Positions 10,945 to 48,430 of a stretch of DNA of 64,000 nucleotides are shown piece by piece. Under the pieces are notes generated by a model. It saw nothing but the letters and a program-made list of their open reading frames with translations, had not been told where the DNA came from and searched no databases. Every line of letters starts with the position of its first letter. Within the stretch, counting starts at the first letter, position 1. Source of the DNA: Vibrio splendidus (lineage in GTDB: Bacteria > Pseudomonadota > Gammaproteobacteria > Enterobacterales > Vibrionaceae); the NCBI RefSeq assembly GCF_024347615.1, contig NZ_AP025508.1, forward strand, positions 372,001 through 436,000, read 5' to 3'. Both the position numbers and the translations under genes were made by a program.

Positions 10945-12225
10945 TTACATCAACCATTTCCACCAAACGAACAGAGCTAAGAAGCCAAATAGGTAAACCA
11001 GACCTGCTACAGACAACCATTTTAGCTTAGTGCCAATCGCAAGCGCTTTAGGTAGCTCTGCTTTGCTCACCAAAATGAAATTCAGTAATGCGAAGAAGGG
11101 GGTTGTGATAAAGGCGAGTATCATCGCGAAATCGAGCATTGGCATCAAGGCTGCACTAAAGAACATTACGATTGCTAGCGCAGCGATAGATACGATGATT
11201 ATCCACCCTTGTAGCATTCTTGGGCTGCTCTCTTTTTTAAGCAGTAGACGCTGTGATTCAGCAAGTACGCGTGAGTAGCCATCGATAACGGTAATGGTAC
11301 TGCCAAAAATACAGAAGAAGGCGACGATTGCGATCAGTGGACGAGACCATTCACCAATTGTCGAGGCGTAAATACCGACCAACTGATGAGTGAAGCCAAC
11401 GCCAGAGCGAGACAATTCAACTCCCGAGCCGTGAAGTACCAGAGCACCTAAAGCAACGAATACCAATGCAAGCAATGCCGTACCAATGTAGCCTACATTG
11501 AAATCGAACAGTGCTGATTGAGCGGTCACGTCTTGTTTCTCTTTTTGGCTTTTTAGCCACATAGAAGTGATGCTTGAGATCTCGATAGGCGCAGGCATCC
11601 AACCCATAGTCACCACGATAAATCCGATAGCTGCCAATGACCAAGGTGATGGTGGCACAAAAGCGGCATCAGGTTCGACTGGAGAGCCAATAGCAATCGC
11701 AACAGCAGCTAAGGTTGTGATGGTCAGGATCGCCATGATCGCTTTAGAGAGAGTGTCGAGCGCGCGGTAATGGCCCGCAAAAAGAATGATCAAACAGGTC
11801 GCTAAAACGATCATGCACAAGGTGCTGGTGGCTAAATCGAAAGGAATAAAGTAACTGAGTAGGTTCGCACTGAATAACAGCAAGGCTGCGGTATTCACGA
11901 CTGCGGAAATAGCACTCAGTATCGAAAAGATCACAAGGTATGGGCGGCCTAGGTTAGAGTAACCTTCCACCAAGCTTTGACCCGTTCCTAGTGTGTATTG
12001 GATACCAGCTTTGAAGAACGGGTACTTAAATATGTTTACGAGGATAATAAGCGCGGCTAGCTGCCAACCATAAATCGCACCAGCCTTGGTTGAGGCTACT
12101 AAGTGAGAGCCACCTACAGCTGCTGCGGCCATCATAATGCCTGGTCCAAGAGACTTAATTAAACTTGATAGGGGAGCTGAGGTTGGTGTTTTTGTGCTGG
12201 TAGTTTTAACCGTACTTTCCATCAT
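10945..12225 (-). CDS. Nramp-fold divalent metal (or related) transporter lacking the DPGN motif
   Basis: The 426-residue protein has about 11 hydrophobic segments. Its N-terminus (SLGPGIMMAAAAVGGSHLV, then STKAGAIYGWQLA) aligns with the first helix of Nramp transporters. The canonical DPGN of helix 1 is replaced by GGSH, and the MPH of helix 6 reads MPAP (GWMPAPIEIS), so the key metal-binding Asp and Asn are absent. Nramp-related proteins with altered helix 1 include the NRMT magnesium transporters and other atypical members. The fold is clear; the substrate is uncertain. Two adjacent ATG codons (12225 and 12222) follow AAAGGAAAA; the second has the better spacing. The gene is alone and is divergent from rluA. 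Confidence 0.8.
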   Translation of the reverse strand: MMESTVKTTSTKTPTSAPLSSLIKSLGPGIMMAAAAVGGSHLVASTKAGAIYGWQLAALIILVNIFKYPFFKAGIQYTLGTGQSLVEGYSNLGRPYLVIFSILSAISAVVNTAALLLFSANLLSYFIPFDLATSTLCMIVLATCLIILFAGHYRALDTLSKAIMAILTITTLAAVAIAIGSPVEPDAAFVPPSPWSLAAIGFIVVTMGWMPAPIEISSITSMWLKSQKEKQDVTAQSALFDFNVGYIGTALLALVFVALGALVLHGSGVELSRSGVGFTHQLVGIYASTIGEWSRPLIAIVAFFCIFGSTITVIDGYSRVLAESQRLLLKKESSPRMLQGWIIIVSIAALAIVMFFSAALMPMLDFAMILAFITTPFFALLNFILVSKAELPKALAIGTKLKWLSVAGLVYLFGFLALFVWWKWLM

Positions 12226-46300: not shown

Positions 46301-46482
46301 CTGGTTTGCTCCCGCTGTTGACGGAAACCAGCTTGCAGGCTCAGGTTATCCAGCCATTGGTTATTTCGATTGTGTTTGGCATATTTGCCTCGACCTTACT
46401 GGTGCTGTTTATGATCCCTGCGGCCTACGCGATACTGGCGGACTTTGGTTTAGTGAAAAAGCATGAGCCATTAGCGCTATAA
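43375..46482 (+). CDS. RND-family efflux transporter permease
   Basis: The 1035-residue pump has 12 transmembrane helices and two large periplasmic loops. The proton-relay Asp pair is present in helix 4 (GIMMDDAIVIAES, about 394-395). The N-terminus reads FFSRHPTAANLLMLGLLIMG, and helix 10-12 includes GIVVNDSILLVQYIRHHV. It is AcrB-fold but closer to the group often annotated as generic efflux RND permeases than to AcrB itself. No outer-membrane factor gene is nearby, so it probably uses a shared TolC. Substrates unknown. Confidence 0.93.
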   Translation: MIKFFSRHPTAANLLMLGLLIMGISSLSTIKRETFPAYDPPYIMAAIVYPGASPQEVEESLCVRMEDAVDGLANIEETQCEAIEGSARLILKLNEKADIGRMLVDVQTQINSINDFPTEIESPVVQELDWNEPVVDIAITAETSWPELKAYAEDLKRIMKLDYDVSLVDVSGFSDHQYRVELDTQAIRQLGLSVGDIADQIGRQNVKLPSGNVETPDKNFLIRFDERRITPVELESIVVGSAPNGSVIRLRDIAKITDRFELDEQKVLFDGKPSALLKISKNKEDDALRIKENVTRFVEDQSAIAPDGVTLQMTNDLSSVLWDRLTMMVRNGWQGIVLVFATMWLFFSLRYSFWVAAGLPVAFLGGLFLMVNLGLSINIMSLVGLLMAIGIMMDDAIVIAESIASHLDRGQNVDDAVYNGVKKVLPGVLSSFLTTVCIFGSLLFLDGEMGAVLKAVPQVLILVLSLSLIEAFLILPNHLSHSLHKEKNDKPALRFKVVLLEKFENFRNTTLMNMVEKVVTFRYAFMGGVLTLLLLSVALIAGGVVKFQPFPELDGDIAEARIILPPGASLSQTERVVDKIVASAERLNKQWSEEVEDGNKLVEHITSQFNANADANESGPHLATVRLDLRGAESRNTVIDDFINAWREDIGDLADPISLVFKQPTMGPGGRAIEIRAKHDDLAELKSASLEIQEYLNQFDGVHGVLDDMRMGKEEILVKLRPGAETYNVNGQMIASQLRAAFFGQTADEIQIGVENISIEVRLNKEQAGDIQQLANFPIITADGSQIPLATLATLDFQRNYVRIQRIDGLRTISIFGDIDNKKASSSAILAQFQKDEAAKLIQKYPGLRFDFEGEAKDAAKTGASMGKGFLLGLFGVFAILSYQFRSYLEPVVVMLAIPLAFIGVVVGHWILGHALSMPSMMGFVSLAGIVVNDSILLVQYIRHHVDEGDSVHDSVVKASRERFRAVFLTSMTTAAGLLPLLTETSLQAQVIQPLVISIVFGIFASTLLVLFMIPAAYAILADFGLVKKHEPLAL

Positions 46483-46609
46483 TTTTTAGTGCTATAACCT
46501 TTAGCGCTATTATCATTAGTGAGCACTATTATCATTAGCGAACGCTATAACCATTAACACGATAGAAGTAGCGTTTGCTTGCTTATATAAAGAAGTAAAA
46601 ACGTAGAAG

Positions 46610-46654: not shown

Positions 46655-46664
46655 CCCCCCCCCC
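46655..46664. repeat. Poly-C tract of 10
   Basis: Ten consecutive C lie 128 bp upstream of the PAP2 gene, between the RND terminator and the Pho box. Tracts of this length are prone to slippage. Confidence 0.9.
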
Positions 46665-46723
46665 ATCAGCTTGCTAGCGAAAGCGGTCAATTCGCCTCAA
46701 AATTCATTTTAGTTCATTCAAAA

Positions 46724-46741
46724 CGTCACTTAACTGTCATT
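46724..46741 (+). promoter_or_regulatory. PhoB box of the PAP2-glycosyltransferase pair
   Basis: ACGTCAC-TTAA-CTGTCAT consists of two 7-base direct repeats separated by 4 A/T bases, the layout of the PhoB consensus CTGTCAT-(A/T)4-CTGTCAT. The right repeat matches at 7 of 7 and the left at 4 of 7. A -10-like TAACTT (46752-46757) follows 10 bp later, the usual spacing in Pho-dependent promoters, and the PAP2 start is 51 bp after the box. Confidence 0.6.
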
Positions 46742-46792
46742 TCAGGAGCATAACTTGAGCCTTAACTGAATAAGGATTGTTAAGGAGATTGT

Positions 46793-47317
46793 ATGCGTAC
46801 TATCGAACCTATTGTCCGCTGGGATGTGGCATTTTCTGTTTTCTGTTTAAAGAGCCGTTATAGCGGACAACAGGCGACACTCAGTAAGGCGGTGTCTCAT
46901 ACTGGAGATGGACACCTTTACGTTTTGATTGCTTTGGTTGCACTACTGGCTGACAGTTACACCGGTCGAGATTTTCTATTGGTGGGCTTAACTGCCTTTG
47001 CAATCGAGTTACCTATTTACTGGTTTGCCAAAAATACCCTCAAGCGTCGCAGACCCGCTGAATTCTCTTCATTGCTTTACTCCCATATTGTGCCATCTGA
47101 TAAATACAGCCTGCCTTCTGGGCATTCCGCTGCGGCTTTTGTTATGGCGACTCTAATCGGACATTTCTATCCGAGCTTATATCTCTTTAGCCTGATTTGG
47201 GCGGCAGCGATTGCTGGCTCTCGAATCCTACTTGGTGTGCACTTTTTAACGGACGTACTGATTGGCGCAGCCTTGGGCATAGCTTGTACTAGCCTTGCTA
47301 TCAGCTTCATCCTGTAA
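46793..47317 (+). CDS. PAP2-family membrane phosphatase
   Basis: The 174-residue protein has about five hydrophobic segments and all three PAP2 motifs: KNTLKRRRP, SLPSGHS, and SRILLGVHFLTD, with both catalytic His residues. Family members remove phosphate from lipid phosphates such as phosphatidic acid, phosphatidylglycerol phosphate or undecaprenyl pyrophosphate. AAGGAGATTGT precedes the ATG. A PhoB box lies upstream and a glycosyltransferase gene follows after 57 bp, so a part in phosphate-starvation lipid remodelling is plausible but inferred. Confidence 0.92.
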   Translation: MRTIEPIVRWDVAFSVFCLKSRYSGQQATLSKAVSHTGDGHLYVLIALVALLADSYTGRDFLLVGLTAFAIELPIYWFAKNTLKRRRPAEFSSLLYSHIVPSDKYSLPSGHSAAAFVMATLIGHFYPSLYLFSLIWAAAIAGSRILLGVHFLTDVLIGAALGIACTSLAISFIL

Positions 47318-47374
47318 TCATTTTGTTGGCAACAACCACAGCCGAGCTTAAGTGGCAAACATAAAGGAACATGC

Positions 47375-48430
47375 ATGAAAATTTTATATGGCGTACAAGG
47401 CACAGGGAATGGGCACATCGCTCGAGCGAGGGCAATGGCTGTGGCTTTTCGTCAGCAAAATATCGATGTCGACTTTCTGTTCTCTGGGCGAGACGAGAGC
47501 AAGTACTTCTCGATGGAAGCGTTTGGTAATTATCAGACCCGCAGCGGCTTAACTTTTTACAGCGAGCAGGGGCAGGTTAAATACGGCAAGACATTCATCA
47601 AGAACAACATCTGGCGATTTCTCAGTGAGATTAATCAGATCGATTTGACGCCTTATGACTTAGTGTTGAATGACTTTGAGCCTGTGACTGCATGGGCAGC
47701 TAAGAGGCAAGGTGTGCCATGCATTGGCATAAGCCACCAGAATGCGTTCCGCTACGATGTACCTAAAGAAGGGGGCAACTGGATTGAACATTCGGTGATT
47801 CAACATTTCGCCCCAACTGAGCACTCGATTGGTTTGCATTGGTATCACTTTGAACAACCGATACTGCCGCCTATCGTTCACACGCTGGCTGGTGATCAAC
47901 AAACAAAAGCAGCACAAAACTTTACGTTGGTCTATTTGCCGTTTGAGGATCTTGAGTCGATCTCCGAGCTGCTGATGAAGTTCATTTCGCACAACTTTGT
48001 CTGTTACCACCCAGATGTTATTGAGCATAGCCGAGTCGAAAATATTGAGTTCAAACCACTGAGTCATGCCGGTTTCCAATTCGACCTCAATCAATGCTCT
48101 GGTGTAGTGGCCAATGGCGGCTTTGAATTGCCATCTGAAGCCTTAACTTTGGGGAAGAAATTGCTTCTTAAGCCACTCGAAGGGCAGTTCGAACAACAGA
48201 GTAATGTGGCGACGCTAGAGGCTCTTGGGTTAGCTCAAACTATGAGCTTTTTAGACGCGGCTACCTTGCGTGGTTGGCTCGGTGAAAAACAGGCAGAAGT
48301 GGTCACTTATCCCGACGTGGCAAGTGCACTTGTTGAGTGGGTGTTAGCGGGCAATTGGTCCAACCAAGATGACTTGAGAAAGCAACTTTGGGACAAGGTA
48401 GATTTTCCTAGTTATGCATCGCTCACTTAA
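47375..48430 (+). CDS. MJ1255/VC2487-family glycosyltransferase (GT-B fold)
   Basis: The 351-residue protein begins MKILYGVQGTGNGHIARARA, the donor-independent N-terminal loop shared with MurG-type and diacylglycerol glycosyltransferases. The C-terminal half has VVANGGFELPSEALTLGKKLLLKP, where the nucleotide-sugar donor usually binds. The V. cholerae family member VC2487 names the family, and the position between leuA and leuO appears conserved. AAAGGA lies 6 bases before the ATG. It is probably co-transcribed with the PAP2 gene. Acceptor and donor are not known; a lipid acceptor is my inference. Confidence 0.88.
   Translation: MKILYGVQGTGNGHIARARAMAVAFRQQNIDVDFLFSGRDESKYFSMEAFGNYQTRSGLTFYSEQGQVKYGKTFIKNNIWRFLSEINQIDLTPYDLVLNDFEPVTAWAAKRQGVPCIGISHQNAFRYDVPKEGGNWIEHSVIQHFAPTEHSIGLHWYHFEQPILPPIVHTLAGDQQTKAAQNFTLVYLPFEDLESISELLMKFISHNFVCYHPDVIEHSRVENIEFKPLSHAGFQFDLNQCSGVVANGGFELPSEALTLGKKLLLKPLEGQFEQQSNVATLEALGLAQTMSFLDAATLRGWLGEKQAEVVTYPDVASALVEWVLAGNWSNQDDLRKQLWDKVDFPSYASLT

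Follow-up and report, generated by a model that had tools for sequence, protein, structure and literature searches.

A PhoB-type promoter array upstream of a conserved PAP2 phosphatase and glycosyltransferase gene pair in Vibrio splendidus: a candidate unit for phosphorus-free glycolipid formation

A 64,000-nucleotide stretch of the Vibrio splendidus genome (contig NZ_AP025508.1, positions 372,001 to 436,000; termed here the window) carries a gene for a PAP2 membrane phosphatase followed by a gene for a GT-B glycosyltransferase (GT). The pair is preceded by an array of four Pho half-sites. Control by PhoB can be predicted with high confidence. As to function, the balance of evidence leans towards a PhoB-activated two-gene operon that makes a phosphorus-free glycolipid at phosphate shortage, and a comparably slight balance favours diacylglycerol (DAG) as the putative acceptor of the GT. 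The source genome consists of two contigs of 5.88 Mb in total, and phoB is present in it.

The PhoB box, ACGTCAC-TTAA-CTGTCAT, is found at positions 46723-46740 of the window. The initial annotation described this box with a right repeat matching at 7/7 positions, a left repeat at 4/7 and a 4-base spacer, and these details are borne out, with the start displaced one base to the left. The distance from the box to the ATG of PAP2 (46793), given as 51 bp, proves to be 52 bases. The -10-like hexamer was correctly placed 10 bp after the box; two further half-sites upstream were missed. The complete array (half-sites A to D, Table 1) becomes apparent when relatives are aligned on the box. They display four half-sites in 11-bp steps (a TGTCAY-like one, a degenerate one in which a CAAA-like end recurs, a CGTCAY-like one and YTGTCAY), followed by 10 bases and the dinucleotide TA.

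Conservation was followed in 90 Vibrio loci, consisting of 30 returned by the search (that of the window among them) and 60 chosen from other matches. The position of half-site A matches [GT]T[AC]A[CT] in all 90 loci. The TA at +10 is also present in all 90, compared with 0 to 4 loci at offsets 6-9 and 11-14. The C-D pattern is matched at each of its 11 scored positions in 77 of the 90 loci, a count that is partly circular because this looser pattern was built from the same PAP2 promoters; half-site A and the TA at +10 lie outside the pattern.

A stricter and independent measure is a position weight matrix (PWM) of 18 positions, whose training set of 24 distinct boxes contains no PAP2-GT sequence. 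Nine of the boxes are from phoB promoters (30 Vibrio genomes, including the source genome) and 15 are from 11 pst2-type pstS promoters. The latter were defined by the pattern NTGAAAC-N4-NTGTCA[CT] among 30 pstS loci, again with that of the source genome included, and the remaining pstS loci were left out. With this matrix, the box has the highest score (13.53) of 127,966 18-mers when both strands of the window are counted, but its lead is small, the runner-up inside 11652-11669 scoring 13.37. The 95% shuffle point is exceeded by 60 of the 90 PAP2 promoters, the other 30 staying below it, and by 2 of 89 leuO upstream regions and 1 of 90 GT coding stretches.

The promoter of phoB itself has the same two-half-site box in 30/30 Vibrio genomes, at a distance to the start codon that is often 51-53 bp, and displays nnG[AT]CAC at the position equivalent to half-site C. 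The pst2 promoters (11 loci) share the entire four-half-site layout, and their -10 words, ten bases further downstream, are rich in TA. In the phoB-linked pstS genes, positioned downstream of phoB, no good box was seen.

The periodicity is also found outside the Vibrionaceae. Pairs of [GT]TCA[CT] at distances of 11, 22 and 33 bp number 38, 41 and 39 in the non-Vibrionaceae loci, against a mean of 0.77 at other spacings. The 11-bp pair is upstream of the gene pair in 35 of 51 such loci. Among other upstream regions from these loci it occurs in 4 of 222, and among GT coding stretches in none of 51. The Pho boxes occupy the -35 position and are followed some 10 bp further on by a -10, as is expected of a member of the PhoB regulon. 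Because the array is conserved, resembles the promoters of phoB and pst2 within the genus and has an 11-bp periodicity that extends outside the Vibrionaceae, control of the PAP2-GT operon by PhoB, as proposed in the initial annotation, is very likely.

The association of the two genes is strict within Vibrio. A GT match is present in 127 of 148 Vibrio genomes, and the PAP2 gene is directly upstream of the GT gene in all 90 loci. The closest named relatives of the GT, at 94-96% identity, are from V. crassostreae, V. splendidus and a Vibrio sp. A second set, the named loci, comprises the best 80 of at least 582 matches: 24 are from Vibrio (some genomes being shared with the 90) and 56 are from other bacteria, including Rheinheimera, Motilimonas, Photobacterium, Shewanella, Alteromonas, Glaciecola, Marinomonas and Methylococcales. 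PAP2 is directly upstream of the GT in 75 of these 80 loci and in 51 of the 56 outside Vibrio. Among the 75 pairs, 22 overlap and 41 have gaps of 30 bp or less, while the flanking genes vary. PAP2 was not found in the remaining five named loci, all outside Vibrio (L170, L184, L197, L200 and L203).

Occurrence of the GT is patchy in an evenly drawn sample of the class, with matches in 14 of 369 genomes (the source genome included), several of them weak. Among the 13 other genomes with a match, the loci of G172, G198, G259 and G318 were left out of the analysis, and the class sample of eight loci includes L246 and excludes L250, both with remote GT relatives (30% and 26%, respectively). PAP2 is detected by tblastn in L241 and L243 and was not found in L245, L246 or L250.

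Some Vibrio genomes depart from the general arrangement. In G010, G057, G085, G096 and G129, the GT match is broken into two pieces, and in-frame stops occur in some of them. As the GT is fragmented in these five genomes and unmatched in 21 of the 148, the pair may be undergoing decay in parts of the genus. In V. coralliilyticus (L130 2859-3996), two tandem PAP2 genes, whose products are 58% and 61% identical to the PAP2 of the window, precede the GT.

The GT scores well above the cut-offs of TIGR00661 (MJ1255/VC2487 family) and PF13528 (Table 1), in agreement with its first assignment to the VC2487 family of GT-B enzymes. The family takes its name from V. cholerae VC2487, and in NCBIfam that name consists of two locus tags only. 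The predicted structure is of the UGT/MurG type, a soluble-type GT-B fold; the sequence search returned no relative with a solved structure. Sterol glucosyltransferase, MurG, drug and macrolide GTs and UDP-GlcNAc epimerases are matched by the model as equals. Although the fold group includes lipid-acceptor enzymes, the modelled fold does not name the acceptor, because lipid, drug and macrolide GTs and epimerases match equally well.

Evidence bearing on the acceptor is provided by gene context in other genomes. The labels PlcP-like and Agt-like are used here because no characterized sequence was compared, the queries being the L177 protein and the GT4 of L204, respectively. A PlcP-like metallophosphoesterase gene is present in six of the 80 named loci (L146, L177, L179, L184, L200 and L204) and in three of the eight class-sample loci (L240, L242 and L245). 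These proteins are 42-85% identical to the L177 protein, a range that covers the 46-47% identity shared by published PlcP proteins of distant genera (PMC8528852); weak Vibrio matches are at 24-28%. Eight of the nine match LpxH models at 60 bits or less, with cut-offs of 134 and 190 bits; the incomplete protein of L204 was outside the scored set.

In L245, the PlcP-like gene is directly upstream of the GT, and PAP2 is missing. In L184 and L200, the PlcP-like gene is separated from the GT downstream by a patatin gene, again with no PAP2. In L242 the order is PlcP-like, patatin, PAP2, GT and DAG-kinase-like gene, and L184 and L200 also carry a DAG-kinase-like gene in addition to the patatin. A GT4 is encoded in L204 and L197; its top-scoring NCBIfam models, both below cut-off, are GlcN-PG synthase and monoglucosyl-DAG synthase. 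In L186, galE is 3 bp after the GT. A phospholipase A1 gene is two genes upstream of PAP2 in L178, and L189 has a phospholipase A1 of 75% identity, likewise upstream. No PlcP-like or Agt-like neighbor is present in L170 or L203. Release of DAG by PAP2 and a lipid acceptor for the GT, both part of the initial annotation, are supported by this gene context as predictions.

An alternative that shares the PhoB control is a unit acting on envelope carriers. PAP2 would use undecaprenyl diphosphate (or phosphatidylglycerophosphate, PGP), and the GT an undecaprenyl-linked or other envelope intermediate, for example in the formation of a phosphate-sparing surface glycan. This is unlikely. Of the genes that accompany the GT in other genomes, the informative ones belong to lipid turnover (PlcP-like, DAG-kinase-like and phospholipase A1); no glycan cluster was seen, though most neighbors lacked annotation, and the Vibrio pair sits between unrelated genes.

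The PAP2 protein exceeds the cut-off of the superfamily profile PF01569 (Table 1), and both the motifs and the gene pairing first reported for it are confirmed. K-x6-RP, PSGH and [SA]R-x5-H-x3-D, the three PAP2 catalytic motifs, occur together in all 90 Vibrio loci and in 74 of the 75 named loci; when the third motif is restricted to serine, the counts are 68 of 90 and 69 of 75. The nearest fold to the predicted structure is 5jki, a PAP2-type PGP phosphatase of Bacillus subtilis, followed by LpxE and acid phosphatases. The protein is below every NCBIfam equivalog cut-off compared. In 34 aligned sequences, the active-site side is basic, with a mean of 5.3 lysines plus arginines in residues 1-38 (no PgpB or LpxE control was included), and the far-side loops are nearly devoid of these residues (0.29, 0.00 and 0.09). 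As the active-site face is basic and the other face is nearly free of lysine and arginine, the positive-inside rule hints that the active site faces the cytoplasm, on the side of the GT.

The resemblance to LpxE raises another possibility, in which PAP2 would act on lipid A or a phospholipid to strip off a phosphate, which the GT would replace with a sugar on the outer-membrane lipid. LpxE is the best sequence match of PAP2 in the PDB (6ebu, E 6.1e-8) as well as the second fold match, but the score against the LpxE equivalog is 25 bits with a cut-off of 177. The GT model, moreover, has a soluble-type GT-B fold. Enzymes of this type use cytoplasmic nucleotide sugars, whereas lipid A phosphates are removed outside, and a role of this kind is improbable.

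The initial annotation proposed a route independent of PlcP and suggested a search of the genome for plcP. With the L177 PlcP-like query, plcP was not found in the source genome; the single match (27% identity, E 1.3e-7) was rejected, as it represents LpxH (334 bits, cut-off 190). The L204 GT4 query did not detect a full-length Agt and gave two partial matches of 32-36% identity. PlcP-independence in the source genome is thus supported. A PlcP-like gene of 39-45% identity, situated away from the GT, was detected in 3 of 30 Vibrio genomes (G135, G141 and G098). In G135 (L247 3325-6067), it is near a pstS-like gene that scores below the pstS family cut-off, with one open reading frame between the two. 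Because of this proximity, some Vibrio might have a second candidate remodeling route.

The proposed mechanism is as follows. Phosphorylated PhoB would bind the four-half-site array and recruit RNA polymerase to the -10 sequence ten bases downstream. PAP2 would dephosphorylate phosphatidic acid or a related lipid phosphate to DAG, and phosphate would be saved. The GT-B enzyme would then transfer a sugar from a uridine diphosphate (UDP)-sugar onto DAG, and the resulting neutral glycolipid would take the place of phospholipid. A PlcP-like phospholipase might supply DAG in certain other lineages, either in place of PAP2 or alongside it. In a broader reading that is offered tentatively, PF13528/TIGR00661 would represent a further family of DAG glycosyltransferases, gammaproteobacteria would have a PhoB-controlled route in which a small PAP2 with its active site towards the cytoplasm converts phosphatidate to DAG for the GT, PAP2 and PlcP would be interchangeable suppliers of DAG to one and the same GT, and the Vibrio unit might be tied to chitin via ChiS.

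Several observations, including those on ChiS and ornithine lipid described below, weigh against glycolipid formation under PhoB control. PgpB, LpxE and other known PAP2 enzymes of the inner membrane work on the periplasmic face. The PlcP-like context is uncommon, being found in 9 of 88 GT loci, none of which belongs to the 24 from Vibrio, and the 11-bp pair is absent from 16 of the 51 non-Vibrionaceae promoters. The patatin gene weighs little as a lipid partner because the best matches of the L184 protein are phospholipases of CBASS or other anti-phage systems, below cut-off; the gene may be outside lipid remodeling altogether.

A further point concerns the regulator. In V. cholerae, a chromatin immunoprecipitation (ChIP) peak of ChiS is located upstream of VC2487 (PMC11856585), and phosphate is therefore perhaps not the sole signal. 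The promoter element might even serve mainly another regulator such as ChiS, with the unit forming part of a chitin response. CGTCA is present in half-site C in 55 of the 90 Vibrio loci, and its complement TGACG occurs three times (359, 368 and 398 of L123) in the chb upstream region of the source genome. The array matches the PhoB boxes of phoB and pst2, however, and is kept outside the Vibrionaceae, where half-site C is without CGTCA, for example in L169, L177, L181, L186 and L192 (by eye). Ownership of the box by ChiS is thus highly improbable and was set aside in view of the match to phoB and pst2; ChiS could still act as a second regulator. Two features of L123 may be mentioned here. The similar stretches TTGACGTTAATGACGTG (358) and TTAACGTTTTTGACGGG (388), within 358-404, are upstream of the gene for the chitin-oligosaccharide binding protein and represent candidates for its pair of ChiS sites. 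At the start of this same gene of the source genome, an exact 90-bp direct repeat with an offset of 86 (561-736) doubles the ribosome-binding region, the ATG and the first codons.

The lipids reported for V. cholerae also have to be considered. At low phosphate, about 90% of the lipid is ornithine lipid, and the lipids named in the available text are phosphatidylethanolamine, phosphatidylglycerol, cardiolipin and ornithine lipid, with no glycolipid reported there (PMC13157583; PMC12186959). The legends in one of these studies mention LIPID MAPS phospholipids and a custom list of ornithine lipids (PMC13157583). VC0489 of V. cholerae is reported to be under PhoB control (PMC12186959). The source genome has one match to PF19576 (OlsF type), in an open frame of 588 codons (L253 1383 onward), and no PhoB-matrix site above zero was found in the 370 bases around its start. 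The dominance of ornithine lipid in V. cholerae would fit a conserved pair that has no role in bulk lipid and serves low-level signaling or detoxification of lipid phosphates, but strict pairing and a strong promoter across many genera make this very improbable.

Table 1. Positions in the window of the genes, protein motifs and promoter elements
Feature	Positions	Strand	Basis
Pho half-site A (AATTCAT)	46701..46707	+	22 bp 5' of half-site C; alignment
Pho half-site B (GTTCATTCAAA), weakest of the four	46712..46722	+	Alignment by eye; pst2 promoters share the layout
Pho half-site C (ACGTCAC), left half of box	46723..46729	+	CGTCA here in 55/90 Vibrio loci
Pho half-site D (CTGTCAT), right half of box	46734..46740	+	Sequence, alignment, matrix
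-10-like hexamer TAACTT	46751..46756	+	Exactly 10 bp 3' of half-site D
Shine-Dalgarno-like AAGGAG of PAP2	46782..46787	+	Sequence
PAP2 membrane phosphatase gene, 174 aa	46793..47317	+	PF01569 66.8 bits (cut-off 27.2); model pLDDT 93.1
PAP2 motif 1, KNTLKRRRP (K-x6-RP)	47030..47056	+	Sequence
PAP2 motif 2, PSGH	47114..47125	+	Sequence; invariant in alignment A3 (34 sequences)
PAP2 motif 3, SRILLGVHFLTD	47219..47254	+	Sequence; R144, H150 and D154 invariant in A3
GT-B glycosyltransferase gene, 351 aa, MJ1255/VC2487 family	47375..48430	+	TIGR00661 318.3 bits (cut-off 195.9); PF13528 125.6 bits (cut-off 25); model pLDDT 93.2

The PAP2-GT pair of the window is flanked by an RND-type efflux gene and leuO. 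The RND-type neighbor scores 425 bits against RND_permease_2, which is under the cut-off of that model. Directly after this gene, at 46470-46560, are short repeats around TTAGCGCTAT and ATTATCATTAG. A run of ten C residues at 46655-46664, 36 bp 5' of the first Pho half-site, might represent a slippage site or an assembly artefact.

In the accessible parts of the literature on Vibrio PhoB, ChiS and PlcP/glycolipid remodeling, the PAP2-GT pair is not described, and an earlier report of its control by phosphate is possible. If the glycolipid interpretation is correct, many gammaproteobacteria (among them Vibrio, Shewanella, Alteromonadales and Methylococcales) would be able to remodel their lipids by a route that surveys based on counting PlcP would overlook. 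It would also give a function to a glycosyltransferase family named in NCBIfam after two locus tags.

Among known systems, the PAP2 protein shares its fold and the three catalytic motifs with LpxE, PgpB and YodM, but differs in falling below all NCBIfam equivalog cut-offs compared. The system of closest purpose is PlcP-Agt lipid renovation, described in Phaeobacter, SAR11, Pseudomonas aeruginosa (PA3219-PA3218/PA0842) and Methylosinus (PMC8528852; PMC4796936; PMC9239053). As in P. aeruginosa, a Pho box precedes a glycosyltransferase operon; glycosylation of DAG at low phosphate occurs there and is proposed here, and a DAG-producing enzyme, putative in the present case, is encoded beside the GT. 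The GT described here, however, belongs to PF13528/TIGR00661 and is not a GT4 Agt, and DAG would come from a PAP2 phosphatase and not from PlcP. The unit is not classed as a PlcP-Agt member because, with the L177 and L204 queries, neither PlcP nor a full-length Agt was detected in the source genome. In type Ia methanotrophs, 'another putative DAG glycosyltransferase' has been noted near plcP (PMC9239053).

Formation of DAG from phosphatidate, and not by PlcP, resembles the phosphatidate phosphatase route suggested for cyanobacteria (PMC4796936). That route is a suggestion only, and no Pho-controlled PAP2-GT operon is named in the available text of the report (PMC4796936). The OlsF pathway of V. 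cholerae (VC0489) differs in its chemistry, in that OlsF carries out acyltransfer on ornithine and no sugar is involved. It provides, nevertheless, a parallel within the same genus: a PhoB-controlled phosphorus-free membrane lipid (PMC12186959; PMC13157583), such as is predicted here for the PAP2-GT pair.

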